Made by a program: the position numbers and the translations under genes. Shown piece after piece: positions 821-10,304 of a DNA stretch of 64,000 nucleotides. The DNA is from an uncultured Verrucomicrobiota bacterium. GTDB lineage: Bacteria; Verrucomicrobiota; Verrucomicrobiia; Limisphaerales; UBA9464. Each line of letters opens with the position of its first letter. The stretch's first letter is position 1. The stretch lies in assembly GCA_903907925.1 (NCBI GenBank), contig CAIVQB010000115.1, positions 1-64,000 of the forward strand, in the 5' to 3' direction. Under the pieces are notes generated by a model. The model saw nothing but the letters and a program-made list of their open reading frames with translations, was not told the DNA's origin and ran no database searches.

Positions 821-1369
821 ATGAAATTCCAGTGGTTCGTCCTACACGTGCTCGCCGGTCAGGAGCAAAAGGTGCGTGACAGCATCCTCAAGCGCATCAA
901 GACCGATGAGATGGAGCCCTATATCCATGAGGTCCTCCTGCCCATGGAAAAGGTCGTCGAAGTGCGTGGCGGCAAAAAAACGGTCACCAACCGCAAGCTC
1001 CATCCGGGCTATGTCTATGTGGAGATGGCCCTGATCGACGAGAACAAGCGCCCGATGGAGCGTCCGTGGTATTTCGTCAAGGACATCCAGGGCGTCATCG
1101 GCTTTGTCGGCGGCGAACGCCCCATGGAGGTCACCGCCGACGAAATCGCGGTGATCAAGGAGCAGGTCAGCGACTCCGAGGACACCGAGAAGCCGAAGGT
1201 CAATTTCGAAGTGGGTGAAACGGTCAAGATCAATGACGGACCGTTCCTCAACTTCAGCGGTATGATTGAAGAAATCGAACCTGAGAAGGGTAAGCTCAAG
1301 GTTACCGTGGATATCTTCGGGCGGAAAACGCCCGTGGAACTCGAATACTGGCAGGTCGAGAAGTCGTGA
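821..1369 (+). CDS. nusG: Transcription termination/antitermination factor NusG
   Basis: A 182-residue NusG, which binds RNA polymerase and couples elongation to Rho or to the ribosome. The N-terminal NGN domain begins with WFVLHVLAGQEQKV and contains the typical HPGYVYVEM and GVIGFVGG segments. The C-terminal KOW domain (about residues 128-180) has the EVGETVKINDGPF and GMIEEI motifs and ends in WQVEKS. Length and position between secE and rplK match the family. A 338-codon open frame on the opposite strand across this gene is a composition shadow. Confidence 0.97.
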   Translation: MKFQWFVLHVLAGQEQKVRDSILKRIKTDEMEPYIHEVLLPMEKVVEVRGGKKTVTNRKLHPGYVYVEMALIDENKRPMERPWYFVKDIQGVIGFVGGERPMEVTADEIAVIKEQVSDSEDTEKPKVNFEVGETVKINDGPFLNFSGMIEEIEPEKGKLKVTVDIFGRKTPVELEYWQVEKS

Positions 1370-1426
1370 TGCATGCGCCTCTCTTGCGCGACGTCGGAAA
1401 CCGCCGCAACCTACTGAACACGTAAC

Positions 1427-1852
1427 ATGGCAAAGAAAGTCACAGGCATCGTCAAGCTGCAGATTCCGGCCGGCCAGGCCAATCCGGCGCCTCCCGTGGG
1501 TCCCGCTCTCGGCTCCCAGGGCATCAACATCATGGCGTTCTGCAAAGAATTCAACGCCGCCACCAAGGACAAGGCTGGTCTGGTTATCCCCGTGGTCATC
1601 ACGGTGTACCAGGACAAGTCCTTCTCCTGCGTCTACAAATCCCCGCCCGCCTCGGTCCTCCTCAAAAAGGCCGCCGGCATCGCTTCGGGATCCAAGACCC
1701 CCAACAAGGAAAAGGTCGGCAAGGTCACCCGGAAGCAGATTCTGGAGATCATCAAGACCAAGGGCTCGGATCTCGCCTGCAACAGCGAGGAAGCCGCCAT
1801 CCGCACCATCGCCGGCACCGCCCGTAACATGGGCATCGAAGTGGTCGACTGA
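1427..1852 (+). CDS. rplK: 50S ribosomal protein L11
   Basis: A 141-residue L11, part of the GTPase-associated centre of the large subunit. It has the N-terminal signature [21 protein letters not shown], the linker [10 protein letters not shown], and the C-terminal rRNA-binding domain with [10 protein letters not shown] and the [10 protein letters not shown] ending. It starts 57 nt after nusG. In most bacteria rplA (L1) follows at once; here a rho-independent terminator follows and the next gene is an unrelated secreted protein. Confidence 0.97.
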
Positions 1853-1883
1853 ATCCACCCGGATCAGACCCCACCCTCATTTC

Positions 1884-1915
1884 AAAACCCGATCCCTCAC
1901 CGGATCGGGTTTTTT
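1884..1915 (+). terminator. Rho-independent terminator after rplK
   Basis: AAAACCCGATCC pairs with GGATCGGGTTTT around a short CTCAC loop and runs into a T-tract (TTTTTT). It lies 31 nt after the rplK stop and is the strongest intrinsic terminator I see in the window. It ends the tuf-tRNA-secE-nusG-rplK transcript before rplA would normally begin. Confidence 0.9.
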
Positions 1916-2063
1916 CGTGCCGCGTCCCGTACCGGGAACGAAGAACGACGCATCCGCAACGCCCGCCGCAGTTCAATCCCGTCGACAACCGTTGCCCAAA
2001 AAACGGAGGCGGGCTCAAGGAAGGATTGTTTTTGGGCGGAGAAAACCCCCAGGATGACCGGAG

Positions 2064-4688
2064 ATGCGGTTGAGCTTCCCGAATTCCATGCGGAGCCGAG
2101 CGCGCGCCCTTCTTCGGGTATTTGCGCTTCCGGGATGGCTGTTGCTCACCGGCACCTTGATCGCGGCCCCGGCCGACGTGGAGGGTGCGGCACGTTTCCA
2201 CAAGGAGGTGCAACCGTTGCTGACCGAGTTCTGCTCCGATTGCCATGCCGACGGCGCAAAGAAGGGCGGGGTGGCGTTCGATGCGTTTCCGTCCGGCCAG
2301 GCGATGATGGAAAATCGCGACCTCTGGCTGGCCGCGCTCAAGAATCTGCGCGCGGGCCTGATGCCGCCCGCGAAAAAGCCCCAGCCCTCCGCCGAACAAA
2401 AACGGCATATCGAAGACTGGATCAAAACCGCCGTTTTCCAGGCCGACCCGCAGAATCCGGATCCCGGCCGCGTCACCGTGCGGCGGCTCAACCGGGTCGA
2501 GTACCGCAACACCATCCGCGACCTGCTCGGAGTCGAATTCGACACCCAGGTGGAGTTTCCCGCCGACGATGCAGGCCACGGCTTCGACAACATCGGCGAA
2601 GTGCTCACGCTGTCGCCCATGTTGCTGGAGAAATATCTGGCAGCGGCGCAGACGATCGTGAACAAGGCCGTCCCGACGGTGCCCGCGGTTCCGGCCGAAC
2701 GGGTGATCAATGGACGCGAGTTTCTCCGCAAGGATGCACTGACCGCACCGGGAACCAACCGGGTCGCGCTATCCGGAACCTCGCTCGCGCTTTCCTATTA
2801 CGACGCGGCCATTGCGACACACCACCTTCGCACGACCAACGAGGGGCGTTACCAATTCGTGCTCGATCTGTCGGCCACCGAACGATTTGTCGACAATCAG
2901 TTCGATTACAACAAATGCCGTTTCACCTTTCGCGTGGATGGTGTGGCGTTGTTTCAGAAGGAATTCACCCGCGAGGGCAACCGCCCGTTCCACTACGAAT
3001 TTGAGCATCCCTGGACCTCCGGCGAGCACGAGCTGGTGTTTGAAATCGAGCCGCTGACGCCGGACCAGAAGCACGTCCGTTCCCTCGCGATGCGGATCGA
3101 TTCAGTGACCATCCGCGGCCCGCTCGAGGAACGTTTTTGGGTCCAGCCCAAGAACTACGTGCGTTTTTTCCCGCGACCCCCACCGCAGGAACCCGCCGCC
3201 CGTCGCCGGTACGCGAATGAATTGCTGGCGCCGTTTGTCCTCAAGGCCTACCGGCGGCCGGTCGAAGAGCCGACTTTGAAACGCCTCATCGCGTTGGCGG
3301 AGGCGACCTACACCCAACCTGGGAAGACGTTCGAGGCCGGCATCAGCCAGGCGATGGTGGCGGTCCTCGCGTCGCCGCGGTTTCTGTTCCGCGAAGAGTT
3401 CACCGAGCCGCCGACGCGCGTGGCACAACATCCGTTCGTCGACGAATACGCGCTGGCGTCGCGGCTCTCCTATTTCCTGTGGTCCACCATGCCGGATGAG
3501 GAACTCTTCCGACTCGCGGCTCATCATGCCCTGCGAAAAAACCTGCCGGCACAGGTTCAGCGGATGATGGCCCACACCCGGTTTGAGGGCTTCGTCCGGA
3601 ACTTCGTCGGCCAGTGGCTCCAGGCGCGCGATGTTGAATCGGTGGTCATCGACGCCCGCCAGGTATTGGCCCGCGAAGCCGCGCCGGATCCCGAATTCGA
3701 AGCGAAACGGGCGCGTTTCCGCGCCTTGCGGGATCTTCCGAACGATCGAATTACGCCAGAGGAAAAACGGGAGCTGGACGTGCTGAGCCCGATTGTGATT
3801 CGCAGGTTTTCGCAACCGGTGCGCGTCGAATTAAACGGGGACCTCCGCCGCGCCATGCGTCAGGAAACCGAGAAGACGTTTGAGTACGTCCTTCGCGGCG
3901 ATCACAGCCTGCTTGAATTGCTCGACGCCAATTACACCTTCCTGAATGAGCGGCTCGCGAAGCATTACGGCCTCACCAATCTCAACATTATGGGCGATGA
4001 AATGCGTCGCGTGGAATTGCCGGCGGACAGTCCCCGTGGCGGCATCCTGACCCAGGGCACGGTGCTCGCGGTCACCTCGAATCCCACGCGAACCTCTCCA
4101 GTGAAACGCGGCCTGTTCATTCTCGACAACATTCTCGGAACGCCACCACCGCCTCCTCCGCCCGATATTCCCGCACTCGAAGAAGCGTCGAAGGGCATCA
4201 AGGATCGGACCCTGACCCAGCGGGAGACGCTCGCGATCCATCGGGAAAAGCCCTTGTGCAGCGGATGCCACAACCGCATGGACCCACTCGGATTGGCATT
4301 CGAAAACTTCAACGCGATGGGTATGTGGCGTGACACCGAGCGCCAGCAATCGATCGACGCCACCGGGACGCTCCTCAGCGGCGAGAGCTTCGCCACGGTC
4401 CGTGAGTTGAAGCGGATTCTCGCCGAATCCCACGCAACGGCTTTCTACCGGACCCTGACCGAGAAGATGCTCACCTACGCGCTGGGCCGCGGACTCAAGT
4501 ACCACGACGTGGAGACCGTTGACACGATTGTGGACGAACTGGTCCGAACGGACGGGAAGCCGTCGGCCCTCGTCGCTGGCATCATCAATTCCGCTCCCTT
4601 CCAAAAAACCCGCGCCGCCGAGCGACCCGGGACGCCGGTTTCAACCCAGGCCCCTCAGCAACGGGCCGACGCCAGGGCAACACCATGA
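2064..4688 (+). CDS. DUF1587/DUF1592/DUF1588/DUF1585 cytochrome-like secreted protein
   Basis: An 874-residue exported protein typical of Planctomycetota and Verrucomicrobiota. A hydrophobic signal segment (about residues 14-35) precedes a c-type haem motif CSDCH (C57, C60, H61). After that come DUF1587 (RRLNRVEYRNTIRDLLG, about residue 140), DUF1595 (YRRPVEEPT), DUF1592 (ASRLSYFLWSTMPDEEL), DUF1588 with a second haem-type motif CSGCH (C732, C735, H736) and GGILTQGTVL, and C-terminal DUF1585 (LTYALGRGLKYHD). The family has no firmly established reaction; a periplasmic redox role is inferred from the two CxxCH motifs. It overlaps the DUF1552 gene by 4 nt, so the two are translationally coupled. 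An ATG at 2088 would give a shorter signal peptide and is an alternative start. Confidence 0.93.
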   Translation: MRLSFPNSMRSRARALLRVFALPGWLLLTGTLIAAPADVEGAARFHKEVQPLLTEFCSDCHADGAKKGGVAFDAFPSGQAMMENRDLWLAALKNLRAGLMPPAKKPQPSAEQKRHIEDWIKTAVFQADPQNPDPGRVTVRRLNRVEYRNTIRDLLGVEFDTQVEFPADDAGHGFDNIGEVLTLSPMLLEKYLAAAQTIVNKAVPTVPAVPAERVINGREFLRKDALTAPGTNRVALSGTSLALSYYDAAIATHHLRTTNEGRYQFVLDLSATERFVDNQFDYNKCRFTFRVDGVALFQKEFTREGNRPFHYEFEHPWTSGEHELVFEIEPLTPDQKHVRSLAMRIDSVTIRGPLEERFWVQPKNYVRFFPRPPPQEPAARRRYANELLAPFVLKAYRRPVEEPTLKRLIALAEATYTQPGKTFEAGISQAMVAVLASPRFLFREEFTEPPTRVAQHPFVDEYALASRLSYFLWSTMPDEELFRLAAHHALRKNLPAQVQRMMAHTRFEGFVRNFVGQWLQARDVESVVIDARQVLAREAAPDPEFEAKRARFRALRDLPNDRITPEEKRELDVLSPIVIRRFSQPVRVELNGDLRRAMRQETEKTFEYVLRGDHSLLELLDANYTFLNERLAKHYGLTNLNIMGDEMRRVELPADSPRGGILTQGTVLAVTSNPTRTSPVKRGLFILDNILGTPPPPPPPDIPALEEASKGIKDRTLTQRETLAIHREKPLCSGCHNRMDPLGLAFENFNAMGMWRDTERQQSIDATGTLLSGESFATVRELKRILAESHATAFYRTLTEKMLTYALGRGLKYHDVETVDTIVDELVRTDGKPSALVAGIINSAPFQKTRAAERPGTPVSTQAPQQRADARATP

Positions 4689-6073
4689 ACACCCCCCGCA
4701 ATCTCGCCGCCGAACGTCACTTCAGCCTGAGCCGACGCCGATTTCTCCGCGGAATCGGTGCGGGCATCGCCGTTCCGGCGTTCGCCTCGCTGGGAGGGCT
4801 GTCGCTGTTGGGGGCCGATGCCGCGGCGAAACTCGCCGTCACCGCCACCGGAGCACCGCTTCGCACCGCCTTTGTTTTCTTTCCAAACGGCGCCATCCCC
4901 TCCGCCTGGTGGCCGAAGGGCGAGGGCTCGGAGTTCGCCTTGGGCGCCACGCTGCAGCCGCTCGAAGCGCACCGGCGACATCTTCAAATCCTCGGAGGAC
5001 TTGATCACCACGCGGCCGAGGCGGGTCCGGATGGCGGCGGTGATCACGCCCGCGGCAATGGGGTCTTTCTCACCGGCGTTCGACTCAAGAAGAGCGCCAC
5101 TGATCTCCAGGCCGGCATCTCGATCGACCAGGCCATGGCCCGCGAAGTCGGCCACCTGACCCGCTTCGCTTCGCTGGAACTGACCGGCGATACCGGGCGC
5201 TATTCCGGAGCCTGCGATTCCGGGTATGCCTGCGCCTATCAGCACAACCTTTCCTGGAGTTCGCCGACCACACCGGTGTCGGCCGAGGCCAATCCGCGGA
5301 TGGTCTTCGAGCGTCTGTTCGGCAGCGGTACAGCGGGCGAACGCGCGGCAAGCCTCATTCGCCGTCAGCAGGAACAACGGTCGGTGCTGGATTTCGTTCT
5401 CGAGGATGCGCGCGGCATGGAACGTCGGCTGAACACACCCGACCGGGCCAAGCTCGATCAATACCTGTCCGGCATCCGTGACATCGAGAAACGCATTGAG
5501 AAGGCGGAACGTTTCGGTACCGCCAAGGATCCCGGCATCGACACTCCGCCCGGCATCCCGACCGATTACGGCCAACACCTCCAACTCATGTACGACATGT
5601 TGGTGCTGGCGTTTCAGACTGATTCGACCCGCGTCGCCACGATGCTGCTGGCGCACGACGGCAGCAATCGGTCCTTCGCCGACATCGGCATTCCCGAGGG
5701 ACATCACGATCTGTCTCACCATCAAAACAACGAGGAAAAGGTCCGCAAGGTCGCCGAGATCGATCAGTGGTACGCGAAACAGTTCGCGCAGTTCCTCGCC
5801 AAGTTGGAGGCCACGAAGGATGTCGACGGTCAGTCGCTCTTGCACAACTCGATGATCGTCTACGGCGGTGGTAATGCGGACGCCAACCGTCATACCCACT
5901 CCAATCTTCCCATCGTTCTGGCCGGTGGCGGAGGCGGGACACTGAATCCGGGCCGCTACGTGAAACACGGTTCCAAGCCGACCACCAACCTGTTCCTCAG
6001 CCTGGCCGACCGGTTGGGAATGAAGTCACTTTCCCGCTTCGGTGATTCCACCGGCCGGCTGGAAAATGTCTGA
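4685..6073 (+). CDS. DUF1552 domain-containing exported protein
   Basis: A 462-residue protein with a twin-arginine export signal: SRRRFLRGIG followed by a hydrophobic stretch (about residues 15-45). The rest matches the DUF1552 family, with GGLDHHAAE, GGGDHARGNGVFLTG, SIDQAMAREVG and the late HTHSNLPIVLAGGG segment. DUF1552 proteins are almost always next to DUF1592-type proteins, as here (ATGA overlap), and probably work with them in the periplasm. The twin-arginine signal suggests the protein is exported folded, possibly with a cofactor. No catalytic activity is established for the family. Confidence 0.92.
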   Translation: MNTPRNLAAERHFSLSRRRFLRGIGAGIAVPAFASLGGLSLLGADAAAKLAVTATGAPLRTAFVFFPNGAIPSAWWPKGEGSEFALGATLQPLEAHRRHLQILGGLDHHAAEAGPDGGGDHARGNGVFLTGVRLKKSATDLQAGISIDQAMAREVGHLTRFASLELTGDTGRYSGACDSGYACAYQHNLSWSSPTTPVSAEANPRMVFERLFGSGTAGERAASLIRRQQEQRSVLDFVLEDARGMERRLNTPDRAKLDQYLSGIRDIEKRIEKAERFGTAKDPGIDTPPGIPTDYGQHLQLMYDMLVLAFQTDSTRVATMLLAHDGSNRSFADIGIPEGHHDLSHHQNNEEKVRKVAEIDQWYAKQFAQFLAKLEATKDVDGQSLLHNSMIVYGGGNADANRHTHSNLPIVLAGGGGGTLNPGRYVKHGSKPTTNLFLSLADRLGMKSLSRFGDSTGRLENV

Positions 6074-6452
6074 TCACACTTCGATCAGTCGACTGTGGAA
6101 ACCGGGTTGCCGCAAAGGGATCCCGAAAAAGGTGAGAATTGCCCGCCGACTGAGAACCGAGATTACCACGACGTCAGCATGGATTGCAAAACGTTTGAAA
6201 ATCGTTAGCTGGACCTACGTTTCCAACCTGCTCCGATACCCAACCCCTCCATCTCGCGAAAAAGGTGTCAATAGTGAGGACTGATCCGTTTTCCGCGGAC
6301 ACCAACTGAGCGGGTTCGAGCGGTTGGCGAGGCGACTTGGCAAATGCAAAGGAAGATTCGGGATTTGCGGAGGCAGGACACGAATTTGCAAACTAAACAA
6401 GCAAGTTTGTAGATAGGCTTGGGAGGGGCCGCGTAAGTCCACATCGATGGAA
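6074..6452. other. Intergenic stretch holding the left inverted-repeat arm
   Basis: Between convergent genes. The only structure I can see is the repeat arm at 6264-6288 and some AT-richer sequence around 6340-6420. A short open frame at 6042-6284 overlaps the DUF1552 gene, has no ribosome-binding site and is basic and low-complexity; I do not consider it a gene. Confidence 0.5.
6264..6288 (+). repeat. Imperfect inverted repeat, left arm of sigma module
   Basis: The arm begins GGTGTCAATAGTGAGGACTG. It matches the reverse complement of 8907-8931 at 21 of 25 positions. The two arms lie outside the sigma-factor gene pair at similar distances (about 165 and 150 nt). Confidence 0.7.
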
Positions 6453-7313
6453 CTACGGCACGGGATCCCAGCGGCTCTCCTCTAAAGTGCCACGACTTCC
6501 CGTCAACCCAATCGCCCATCTGGAATCACGCCGGTTCACCGGTGCCCTTTGGGTTATGACCCAATCGCCACCGGTTTCTGCGAGGGATGGAATTAGGGTC
6601 TTTGCCGGTACGACCTGCCAGCGTTGCAGCATCGAATCGTCGATGGGTGCACTGAAATAGGGTTTGAGCGCCTCAACGTCTGCGGGAAACGGACCTCCCC
6701 CGTTTTTTGCGAATTGCTTGAGGGCATCCGCGATCGCCGTCGACATCTTCCCTTCGCCGTCTGCTCGTAGCATGGCGCTCATGGAACGATAATCCTGTTC
6801 GACAATGAGCGCTTCCCCGGCCCGATACATCCATCGGTCATCCGAAATCAGTTGGAGTTCTGGTATCTTCTCACTGGGCGTCTGTTCCAACCAACGCTTC
6901 AACCGTTCAACCCGTGCCGTGCGTACGGGAATCTCGTCGACAACGAGAGTTGTGTCGATTTGGGGACCGAATTGCGCTTCAGAGGCGGCATCCGTCAATT
7001 GATCCCGCAGGCGCGCAATTCGGGAGCGGATTGCTTCCACTTCCTGCAAAGACCGACGGTTGCTCGCGATATCGTTGCGAACCTGGAGCAGTTCCTCTGT
7101 TTGAGCCTCCGTGACCGACTTTGATTGCTCGAACCGCGCAGCAACCTCCGAGAGATGTCGATTCTTGGCAGACAGGGCTGTTGCTTTCGAAGTTTGGTTT
7201 TCCAGGAAGGACTCAAGAGTCTGAAGTCGGCGTTTCTCACTGTGCTTAACGAAACTCGGTACCGTGATCGCCGTGGCGAGAAACAACCCAACAATGTAGT
7301 TCGGCGCTTTCAT
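6453..7313 (-). CDS. Membrane-anchored coiled-coil protein, partner of the adjacent sigma factor
   Basis: A 286-residue protein of unrecognised family. One N-terminal transmembrane segment (about residues 5-20, NYIVGLFLATAITVPSF) is followed by a long heptad-rich coiled coil (about 25-115) and a C-terminal soluble domain (about 155-286) with a PFPADVEALKPYF segment. That architecture and the domain start resemble the periplasmic half of the upstream sigma protein (GVFPTNLSQVTGRI there). The start codon overlaps the sigma stop (ATGA, 7310-7313), so the two are co-translated. I infer that it forms a hetero-complex with the sigma protein through coiled coils, perhaps as sensor or anti-sigma. No enzyme motif is visible. 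Confidence 0.8.
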   Translation of the reverse strand: MKAPNYIVGLFLATAITVPSFVKHSEKRRLQTLESFLENQTSKATALSAKNRHLSEVAARFEQSKSVTEAQTEELLQVRNDIASNRRSLQEVEAIRSRIARLRDQLTDAASEAQFGPQIDTTLVVDEIPVRTARVERLKRWLEQTPSEKIPELQLISDDRWMYRAGEALIVEQDYRSMSAMLRADGEGKMSTAIADALKQFAKNGGGPFPADVEALKPYFSAPIDDSMLQRWQVVPAKTLIPSLAETGGDWVITQRAPVNRRDSRWAIGLTGSRGTLEESRWDPVP

Positions 7314-8755
7314 TGGGCTGGGACCCGGGGAGCAACGGTGTGCTGCTGAATCCAGGCGTCAAAGGAACCGTCCGCGGGACAGTAAGAATCCGCCAAACCT
7401 TGAAGACTAAACCACGTCATCACCAGTTTGCCGTCGGCGTTCCTCCACGGACTCCGTTCCCGGATTAGGATGATTCGGTCTGGGTGGGCGTACTGGGTGA
7501 TTTCCGACGTAGTGCCCTGAAAGGCAATTACATACTGATCGGGTGACAGTCCTTTTTGGTATTTCGGATCCAGGGTGATGCGCCCGGTCACTTGGGAGAG
7601 ATTCGTCGGGAAGACGCCTTTGTTTTCGAGGGCGTATTCCTGCATGGCCCGAGACAACGCCATGGTGTAGTAGATCCTAGTATCCATCTCTGGGCTGCGT
7701 GCGGTTATCTGCTGGTTGGTGTCGCCGTGCCGAAGCTCCGACCGTGCTCTTGCGAGCGCTGCCGAGAGTTTCTTTTCCTCATCGTTCAGTGCCGTCAGAC
7801 CGCCAGCCTTGGCTCGTAGTGCCGCCGATTCCTCGCGAAGGTTTCGGAGTTCATCCACCCGGGACACAGATTGGCCGTTCGTCTTGGGGACCAATGCTAA
7901 AAGCCGTCTGTTCTCGGTTTCTAGGTCCTCCAGACTGGCCAGTTGCCATCGGAAGGCTTGGTCAACCTCGTAGAGCCTGATGTGGGATTGGTACTCGATG
8001 ACCAGGGTCGTTGCGGCACTGGCGACGACGATCACACCGATCAGTCCTGCCTTGAGTTTGGTGAGAGCCATTGTGTTGAGTAGGGTTGCGCCTCCAGTTC
8101 CAGCTGCAGTGCCCATGAACACGGCGGTGGAAACTGCGGACGCGAAACCGACGGGGGCGGTCTGCATAGCATTTGCGGAAACGGCGGCGACAAGTCCGTT
8201 CGCCGTGAGGGCGATGCCCTGTTTTGTGAAATAGGTTCGGAGTTTTTCTACCGCCCGCGTGGTGCGCTTGTGCGCCGCCCATTCGCTAATTCCCAGGAGC
8301 GTTGCCGCTTCCGCGCCGCTCTTGTTCTCGAAGAATCGCAGTGCCACGAGAGCTCGATCCCGCTCGTTGAGCTGGGACATACCTTCTTCGAGGAAGGGTT
8401 CGAGACGCCGCCAAATGGTGTCGGTATCCGACTCAGGAGCGGTGGATTGCATGTAGGCAGCCTGTTCTCGGATGAGCCGTCGTTTTCGTGCCCGGATGAA
8501 TTGGCGACTCGTAAGTCGGGTTGTCTCGTAGAACCAACCCGTCAACGTGGTTCGGGAGCGGAGTTCGCCGGCGGTTTTCGCGAACACCACGAAGACCATC
8601 TGTGCCACGTCTTGGGCGTCTGCGGAATTGCCGATGAGGCGGAGCGCAACGGAGTAGACCAGTCCGATGTGGCGGGAGACGATCGCCGCAAAAGCCGATT
8701 CCGACTTGAAATCGGTGTATTCCCGGATCAGTGCTGCGTCGCTCGCGTCGTCCAT
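7310..8755 (-). CDS. ECF-type sigma factor fused to a transmembrane/periplasmic domain
   Basis: A 481-residue protein. Residues 10-90 are sigma-70 region 2 (SADAQDVAQMVFVVFAK; GWFYETTRLTSRQF). Residues 115-175 are region 4, with the helix-turn-helix GAEAATLLGISEWAAHKRTTRAVEKLR. A hydrophobic alanine-rich linker (180-230) leads to a transmembrane helix (about 236-254, GLIGVIVVASAATTLVI), then a coiled coil (265-340) and a C-terminal soluble domain (355-481). Ordinary ECF sigma factors are about 170-200 residues and soluble. Here the sigma half should face the cytoplasm and the C-terminal half the periplasm, so signal input may be built into the same chain. It is co-translated with the coiled-coil partner and flanked by inverted repeats. 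Confidence 0.9.
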   Translation of the reverse strand: MDDASDAALIREYTDFKSESAFAAIVSRHIGLVYSVALRLIGNSADAQDVAQMVFVVFAKTAGELRSRTTLTGWFYETTRLTSRQFIRARKRRLIREQAAYMQSTAPESDTDTIWRRLEPFLEEGMSQLNERDRALVALRFFENKSGAEAATLLGISEWAAHKRTTRAVEKLRTYFTKQGIALTANGLVAAVSANAMQTAPVGFASAVSTAVFMGTAAGTGGATLLNTMALTKLKAGLIGVIVVASAATTLVIEYQSHIRLYEVDQAFRWQLASLEDLETENRRLLALVPKTNGQSVSRVDELRNLREESAALRAKAGGLTALNDEEKKLSAALARARSELRHGDTNQQITARSPEMDTRIYYTMALSRAMQEYALENKGVFPTNLSQVTGRITLDPKYQKGLSPDQYVIAFQGTTSEITQYAHPDRIILIRERSPWRNADGKLVMTWFSLQGLADSYCPADGSFDAWIQQHTVAPRVPAQ

Positions 8756-8906
8756 CTATCTGCTATTTGCCGCCGAGACCCGAGATTGGACAAAGAATTC
8801 TGCGGTCCAGTCTCACCCCCAATCAAACGGGTTCCGGATATCGAGGAAGAACTTGGCTTTCGGTACGGCAAGGGTGTCGCTCCACCATGAGGCATGGGAA
8901 GGGGAA

Positions 8907-8931
8907 GGGGTCAATCCTCACCATTGACACC
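8907..8931 (-). repeat. Imperfect inverted repeat, right arm of sigma module
   Basis: Read on the minus strand it begins GGTGTCAATGGTGAGGATTG. It is the inverted partner of 6264-6288, with four mismatches in 25. The pair spans 2,668 bp and contains only the two sigma-module genes. Confidence 0.7.
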
Positions 8932-9017
8932 CTCCTTTGTACCGGGTGCCGAAGGTTTGTGGGGAGGTGACGCCGCTTCAAGGTTTGGGGATGTCAGGAT
9001 TCGAAACCTTGGGCGCT

Positions 9018-9080
9018 ACCCGAGGCTGGTATCGGACGGGCTGTTGGCCCGTTGAAAAAGGCGCAGGCCCAACAATACGA
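9018..9080 (-). repeat. Dispersed repeat, copy B
   Basis: Read on the minus strand this segment contains GATACCAGCCTCGGGTAGCG followed by CCCAAGGT. It closely matches ATACCAGCCTTGGGCACCG-CCCAAGGT inside the element at 16125-16425. It is non-coding in both places, so it is a shared repeat, not a shared gene. Confidence 0.6.
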
Positions 9081-9302
9081 CCCCGTCCCGACGCTGATCG
9101 GGCCAATGACGGTGGAGTCGCGAATCGGATGGATCAGCGGTCTCGACGGGGGATTCTCCCGCGACGAGACTCCACGCCTTTGAGGGATGGGAATGAGAAA
9201 TGATTGAAACCTACCGCTCGCCATCCGGGTTGAATAGGGATCGGCCGCGGCGTGGAGGTCACGCCGGGGTGTCGGTCATCTTGAGTTGCTGAAACTGTTC
9301 CC

Positions 9303-10304
9303 ATGAAAACACGCGCTATTCTAACACTGATTCTCGCCTTCGCCGGGGCTCTCCTGGTTTCGGCGGCGACCGAGGAATCCTTCCAGACCAACCTCACCGT
9401 CCTGCCCGCCGGCAAGCTGATCGTGGACGTCGATTTTGGGGCCATCGAGGTGACCACCAACGCCGCCAGCCAGGTGTCGCTGGACGTGTATCGCAAGGTG
9501 TCCATGCCGACTTCCGTCAAGGAGCGCGAGTTCCTTGACGAACGGCCGATCGTCGTTTCCAGGGAGGGCAACACGGTGACGATTCGAGCCCGGAAACCGG
9601 GCAAGACGAGTTGGAACTGGTCGTTCGGTCGGCAGAGCACCGAGGGCCGGTTCCGAATCGCTGTTCCGGCCTCTTTCAACACGGTGCTCAACACCCGCGG
9701 TGGCCCGATCCATGTGTCGGATCTCGCCGCGACGGTCCAGGCCGATACCTCGGGCGGCGGTCTCCGCTTTACAAGAATTCTGGCCGACATCACCGGAAAT
9801 ACCTCCGGCGGCGGCATTCAACTCAGTGAATGTCAGGGAACCCTCAAGGTCGATACCAGCGGCGGCGGGATTCAGTCGGAGGGTGGATCGGGTTCGCTCC
9901 GCGCCAACACCTCGGGCGGATCCATCACCGTCCGAAACTTTGGCGGACCCGCCCATCTCGATACCTCGGGCGGAGGCATCCGGGTGGAAAATGTCCGTGG
10001 CACTGTAAGTGGTTCGACCTCCGGTGGATCAATCCATGCCAGTCTTCCGTCGCCCGTTCCTGGCACCGTCAAATTGTCGACCTCCGGCGGTGGCATTGAA
10101 CTCCAAGTTCCCTCCACCGCGGCCTTTGATCTCGATGCGTCGACCTCCGCCGGCGGGGTTTCCTGCGATCTGCCCATTGTCACCAACGGAAAGCCGCACC
10201 ATGACCACCTCAAGGGACCAGTAAACGGAGGCGGACCGCGGGTCGAACTGCAGACCAGTGCCGGCGGTGTTCGCATCCGGTCGCTGTCGGTATCGGCGAA
10301 GTGA
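9303..10304 (+). CDS. DUF4097-type beta-solenoid exported protein
   Basis: A 333-residue protein with a signal peptide (MKTRAILTLILAFAGALLVSA). The central part (about residues 135-260) is a run of roughly 18-residue repeats each carrying TSGGG-I or a near variant: DTSGGGLRF, NTSGGGIQL, DTSGGGIQS, NTSGGSITV, DTSGGGIRV, STSGGSIHA, STSGGGIEL, then TSAGGV. This fits the right-handed beta-solenoid of the DUF4097 (putative adhesin) family. It probably sits on or outside the cell envelope; no enzymatic motif is visible. A divergent paralogue lies at 11722-12753, beyond a glycosyltransferase gene. Confidence 0.88.
   Translation: MKTRAILTLILAFAGALLVSAATEESFQTNLTVLPAGKLIVDVDFGAIEVTTNAASQVSLDVYRKVSMPTSVKEREFLDERPIVVSREGNTVTIRARKPGKTSWNWSFGRQSTEGRFRIAVPASFNTVLNTRGGPIHVSDLAATVQADTSGGGLRFTRILADITGNTSGGGIQLSECQGTLKVDTSGGGIQSEGGSGSLRANTSGGSITVRNFGGPAHLDTSGGGIRVENVRGTVSGSTSGGSIHASLPSPVPGTVKLSTSGGGIELQVPSTAAFDLDASTSAGGVSCDLPIVTNGKPHHDHLKGPVNGGGPRVELQTSAGGVRIRSLSVSAK

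Follow-up and report, generated by a model that had tools for sequence, protein, structure and literature searches.

Sigma factors of the extracytoplasmic function (ECF) type that are fused to a membrane segment are known in a few bacterial groups, and these fusions carry a recognizable anti-sigma part (PMC8999054). IutY of Pseudomonas putida (ECF243) is such a sigma/anti-sigma fusion and is reported there to be activated by proteolysis (PMC8999054). In this study, we analysed a window of 64,000 nt, the whole stretch of DNA presented above, from an uncultured Verrucomicrobiota bacterium (contig CAIVQB010000115.1). It contains a gene pair, flanked by inverted repeats, that encodes an ECF-type sigma factor with a predicted transmembrane (TM) helix and a look-alike partner lacking the sigma part. 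The best explanation overall, and in our judgement a probable one, is that a membrane-tethered sigma factor is controlled from outside together with its sigma-less partner, and that the repeats are a separate matter. The features of the pair are as follows.

7310-8755, minus strand: gene for the putative membrane-tethered ECF sigma factor, 481 amino acids (aa) (open reading frame with Pfam and structure matches)
8477-8680, minus strand: sigma-70 region 2, residues 26-93 (Pfam PF04542 Sigma70_r2, E 4.6e-10)
8237-8386, minus strand: sigma-70 region 4, residues 124-173 (Pfam PF04545/PF08281; Sigma70_r4 match at residues 126-173, E 3.6e-9)
7994-8050, minus strand: predicted TM helix of the sigma protein, residues 236-254 (mean hydropathy 2.03)
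7721-7993, minus strand: long-helix or coiled-coil region of the sigma protein, residues 255-345, with the family motif ELLRLRGEVARLR
7340-7693, minus strand: C-terminal domain of the sigma protein, type B, residues 355-472 (AlphaFold2 predicted local distance difference test score, pLDDT, mostly 85-97; family alignments)
6453-7313, minus strand: gene for the sigma-less partner, 286 aa, whose start overlaps the sigma stop by 4 nt (ATGA)
7248-7298, minus strand: predicted N-terminal membrane anchor of the partner, residues 6-22 (hydropathy 1.94 over 17 residues)
6984-7241, minus strand: long-helix or coiled-coil region of the partner, about residues 25-110 (AlphaFold2 model m4183df5fdeb5)
6465-6950, minus strand: C-terminal domain of the partner, type A, residues 122-283 (confident AlphaFold2 model, pLDDT 83-98)

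Pfam places regions 2 and 4 of the sigma protein above cut-off and finds no other sigma domain, as is the case in ECF group 4, and the TIGR02937 score is 70.6 bits against a cut-off of 42.9. The structural model matches the known ECF sigma structures SigE, SigW and AlgU, and the only matches in a viral structure library were phage sigma factors. By its domains and structure matches, the 481-aa protein is an ECF-type (group 4) sigma factor, which would as such bind core RNA polymerase and direct transcription. Hydropathy and AlphaFold2 predict that a TM helix and an extracytoplasmic extension are fused after region 4, the model having a long helix at residues 225-288, a second helix at 297-345 and then the confident domain at 355-472. 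Pfam, hydropathy and AlphaFold2 thus agree with an earlier sequence-only reading of the window, which had described a 481-residue protein with sigma regions 2 and 4, one TM helix and a coiled coil and had called its remaining domain extracytoplasmic; the final domain is here described as soluble and C-terminal. Only the stretch at 236-254 is a clear TM segment. Given that residues 185-217 are also hydrophobic (1.34, under the TM threshold here and over it in several relatives), a single TM helix is likely but uncertain. No anti-sigma domain of the zinc finger or FecR type was recognized before the TM helix (Pfam gave no match of this kind to the 481-aa protein at thresholds as loose as E 1), and none is among the 25 commonest Pfam families of 32 relatives.

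The partner follows the same plan of anchor, coiled coil and soluble domain, and the ATGA overlap, hydropathy and AlphaFold2 bear out the earlier description of it as a co-translated protein without a sigma part. Its N-terminal TM segment is weak (hydropathy 1.46 over 19 residues, 1.94 over 17). The cytoplasmic stub is tiny, with about five residues ahead of the predicted anchor, which rules out a classical cytoplasmic anti-sigma factor; any control by the partner must therefore act across the membrane or by way of the domains outside. BLASTP found no similarity between the outer halves, or between the C-terminal domains, of the two window proteins. HHalign, comparing whole outer-half profiles, gave 99.7%, and 99.2% when partners of the sigma protein's own domain type were left out; with those partners left out, the C-terminal domains alone still gave 96.7% (E 3.4e-10). 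Judged from these profiles, the two C-terminal domains are homologous; structurally unrelated domains, the outcome that the earlier reading had named as refuting its module idea (see below), were thus not what was found. In Foldseek and VIA searches with the complete models, matches to the sigma domain or to the long helices prevailed, which made the searches uninformative on the C-terminal folds. A guess made by eye from 'YAFADGH', that the sigma C-terminal domain is pseudopilin-like (GspG, H-X9-DG), found no backing: sequence searches of Pfam, NCBIfam and the PDB gave no match.

Across the family the TM-coil chassis is constant and the outside domains are highly variable. One chassis carries three domain types, namely A (the window partner), B (the window sigma) and, in some members, a third related to DUF4878. 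In genome G003 (L118/L260) the arrangement is swapped, with type A on the sigma protein and type B on the partner. The outside domains therefore appear exchangeable on a fixed sigma-TM-coil chassis, being either fused to the sigma factor or supplied by a co-translated partner protein. Provided that the partner takes part in the sensor, the arrangement would be a plug-in way of building sensors.

An adjacent partner was found for 13 of 92 sigma-fusion genes (the window and 12 in named Verrucomicrobiota loci), and further pairs outside this count are present at L116, L125 and L185. Several pairs overlap by 4 nt or more, the overlap being 4 nt in the window, L224, L231 and L253. In the relatives searched, the partner mostly matches the C-terminal half of sigma fusions made in one piece, about 460-630 aa long. 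The possibility that the partner is a functionless remnant of a partial gene duplication has to be weighed here. The partners at L125 and L270/L180 are 68% and 49% identical, respectively, to the outer half of the adjoining sigma protein, recognizable partial copies that indicate how partners can arise, and the pairs are scattered on the sigma tree (a quick tree), which requires five changes or more and implies that pairs are gained and lost. However, the reading frame of the window partner is intact, and the domain types kept among partners indicate selection. In addition, the nearest comparable pair, L111/L224, retains a partner 38% identical over 280 aa beside a sigma protein 34% identical, both pairs having the ATGA overlap. 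A mere remnant is thus very unlikely, and we are fairly confident that the pair consists of a membrane sigma factor and a functional partner.

Three other loci of this family deserve mention. Three more membrane-sigma paralogues, whose open frames range from 574 to 1108 aa, lie within 9 kb at G000:C70:62544-71125. Two adjoining sigma-less partner-like genes lie upstream of a sigma fusion at L248:220-1691. At L242:4001-7558, a single open frame of 1185 aa joins a membrane sigma factor of the family to a complete IlvD/Edd dehydratase, by fusion or through a lost stop codon.

A sigma domain must be in the cytoplasm to act. The remainder of the sigma protein is argued to be outside, given the TM helix and the carboxypeptidase-regulatory-like domains that paralogues L256 and L302 carry at the position equivalent to its outer part. 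The sigma protein and the partner would meet through their coiled coils at the outer face of the inner membrane, and their C-terminal domains would jointly read an outside signal. The signal would alter the availability of the sigma factor, most likely through regulated intramembrane proteolysis; with IutY as the precedent, release of the sigma domain by proteolysis has, in our estimate, a little under an even chance. Gating of the sigma factor by a conformational change is the alternative. A further possibility is that the sigma domain is active while membrane-bound, the outside domains positioning it rather than gating it, which would fit a chassis kept family-wide under widely varying outside domains. 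It is nevertheless quite improbable, as a tethered holoenzyme would be expected to reach few promoters and the precedent, IutY, is reported to be released by proteolysis (PMC8999054).

The domains, the homology of the two outer halves, the gene overlap, the recurrence of the pair and the swapping of domain types are observed, whereas the complex of sigma factor and partner, its topology, the signal and the proteolysis are inferred. Several points weigh against the explanation as a whole. The second hydrophobic stretch at 185-217 leaves the topology ambiguous. Most sigma fusions lack an adjacent partner, which is therefore not essential to the fusion type. Partner-like genes that stand alone, with no sigma gene beside them, occur in the same genus (L124:4330-5205, L128:4613-5596 and L129:2218-3084). 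Finally, remnants of RAYT (REP-associated tyrosine transposase) elements surround an unrelated sigma pair in genome G054 (see below), and the link with such elements may not be accidental.

The sequence-only reading had presented the locus as a one-piece device with a built-in partner, possibly carried in a 2.7-kb mobile or duplicating module whose borders were 25-bp inverted repeats (21 of 25 matching) about 150-165 nt outside the pair. The one-piece membrane sigma and the look-alike partner are supported; the module is not. The repeats themselves are well founded, as the arms pair at 23 of 27 positions (21 of 25 in the shorter form), whereas shuffled flanks (n = 300) never exceeded 19 of 27, and the gaps to the gene pair are 162 nt on the left and 149 nt on the right. 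They belong to the following features.

6111-6236, plus strand: C-terminal relic of a Y1 transposase of the RAYT/TIRYT type (found by tblastn with intact RAYT queries from relatives, 73% over 41 aa, E 4e-12)
6264-6290, plus strand: left arm, a RAYT terminal inverted repeat of the right-end type (3′ of RAYT), with the core TGTCAATAGTGAGGAC at 6266-6281
8905-8931, minus strand: right arm, a RAYT terminal inverted repeat of the left-end type (repeat comparison)

The relic directly precedes the left arm, and none was detected beyond the right arm. In a relative, G040, an intact RAYT of about 320 aa lies between GGGGTCGGTCCTCACTATTGACAC and its inverse (L132, 2984-4004), and several genomes contain short copies, about 100 bp in length. 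The outer-end motif GGGGWSAS is matched at 7 of 8 positions by the right arm (GGGGTCAA) and likewise by L132 (GGGGTCGG), and is degenerate in the left arm. Compared with L132, the outer ends of the window arms point at the sigma genes; the sigma pair is therefore situated between two element ends, not within one element. In the whole genome of 4.6 Mb there are only a handful of sites with the core or close variants of it, namely the window arms, an inverted pair on contig C117, C124 and C136. Single copies of the repeat are found on C124, C136 and C4. The status of one-mismatch copies at C106:2131, C106:5235 and C4:55442 is undecided, and a match at C106:110761 was set aside because it looks like chance within a coding gene; a reversed control pattern gave no hit with the first search pattern and two with a looser one. 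Remains of the RAYT C-terminus lie upstream of the window left arm, of the C124 repeat (72% DNA identity with the window relic over 166 bp) and of one C117 copy, and the RAYT N-terminus lies beyond the other C117 copy. No intact RAYT was found in the genome; its two Y1 transposases on C75 and C47 are short, with open frames of 158 and 142 aa where the RAYTs have about 320 aa. These data strongly suggest that the window repeats are the terminal repeats of old RAYT elements, which flank accessory DNA and form no functional part of the device. RAYT ends can thus be mistaken for the borders of gene modules.

The same RAYT repeat is abundant elsewhere. Genome G034 has 49 exact copies (e.g., L130), often in inward pairs about 95-117 bp apart that resemble miniature inverted-repeat transposable elements, together with a pair at RAYT length, about 1 kb apart. 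At L134 (G082:C100), positions 1251-4185, three directly repeated RAYT C-terminal tails are each followed by the repeat, 0.9-1.9 kb apart, as if the right end alone had been copied.

Do the repeats travel with sigma genes? The earlier reading had suggested that such a module could explain how sigma genes multiply within a genome, and had asked whether further repeat copies bracket sigma or partner paralogues. The genome contains ten other sigma fusions with E < 1e-30 (about 11 close copies in all), and none of the ten has the repeat (up to two mismatches) in its flanks, which were covered for at least about 1.5 kb or as far as the contig reaches. The sole repeat copies by a sigma gene in this genome are the window pair; the other copies stand single or bracket an OLD-type ATPase (AAA_15 with an OLD-like TOPRIM domain, C117:9982/12280). 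Multiplication of sigma genes by the repeats is therefore not supported, and the nearest comparable pair, L111/L224, also lacks the repeat. At the C117 locus (G000:C117:9982-12295; L007:2983-5296), the only gene between two RAYT repeat ends that face each other encodes a 587-aa OLD-type protein, possibly of anti-phage defence, and RAYT relics flank it on either side.

It is conceivable, though unlikely, that the bracketed segment is a non-autonomous composite element, in which the flanking RAYT ends are able, or were once able, to carry along the genes that they enclose. The handful of repeat copies in 4.6 Mb includes two inverted (+,-) pairs with a spacing of 2.3-2.6 kb, and the OLD-type gene has the RAYT C-terminus on one side and the N-terminus on the other. 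Seven same-genus genomes yielded no close relative of the window pair, the best matches to its sigma gene being 35-46% identical. In four same-genus genomes the gene that ends at 6073 has a counterpart with 77-83% identity, but similarity halts exactly at that point and resumes at 9303 or later, which makes the stretch 6074-9302 lineage-specific by sequence comparison. The guanine-plus-cytosine content of the segment is 0.572 against 0.617 for the window. Yet this difference is modest (the 9th lowest value among 123 windows), and the arms turn their outer ends towards the cargo, opposite to the layout of an element containing it. No second copy of the unit of repeat, sigma gene, partner gene and repeat was found in the genome, which also lacks an intact RAYT, and most sigma pairs have no such repeats. 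No empty site was found in relatives, where the gene starting at 9303 sits elsewhere and the flanking genes are not neighbours, so that the site is unreadable.

Among the pairs found outside the window, one only has the repeat, that of G054 (L110/L235). Its sigma and partner genes lie between two direct RAYT-derived remnant copies, 91% identical over 192 bp, which are the sole two copies of that RAYT half in its genome. The G054 sigma factor falls in a clade separate from the window sigma, indicating that the two cases are independent, and for this reason the composite-element reading is kept at low probability. That RAYT remnants serve as composite ends and have carried small accessory units (a membrane sigma and partner in each of two unrelated genomes and, as a third case, an OLD-type ATPase) is distinctly doubtful; if true, it would give RAYTs, known for spreading short palindromes, a role in moving whole genes.

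Returning to the membrane-tethered sigma factor and its partner, a literature search found no description of this Verrucomicrobiota family or of its partner, which is a weak test since most subscription papers and the main ECF classification paper were outside its coverage. The apparent novelty is a Verrucomicrobiota membrane-sigma family without a recognizable anti-sigma domain. It shares an ECF-type sigma domain of PVC (Planctomycetes, Verrucomicrobia and Chlamydiae) bacteria with TIGR02989, the Rhodopirellula/Verrucomicrobium family, but the window sigma scores 54 against a cut-off of 124.55 and is not a member. ECF48, ECF52 (SCO4117) and ECF53 of Actinobacteria similarly have C-terminal fusions with TM helices and regulatory extensions; theirs, however, are zinc-finger anti-sigma regions, none of which was found in the window sigma, and the available part of the source describes no look-alike partner for them (PMC8999054). 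In IutY, as in the window, a TM helix connects an ECF sigma domain with an extracytoplasmic part, and there is no separate membrane anti-sigma factor (PMC8999054). The window sigma differs from IutY in having no recognized anti-sigma domain between region 4 and the TM helix, and in having a sigma-less partner. It may therefore work like the membrane sigma/anti-sigma fusions but, with no anti-sigma domain recognized, is not classed with them. As for the repeats, they resemble those of TIRtrons/TIRYT (RAYT genes with long terminal inverted repeats), in which GGGG-ended repeats lie by RAYT-type genes and are dispersed singly or in pairs (PMC3733652); the window differs in keeping relics only and in holding accessory genes between facing outer ends.
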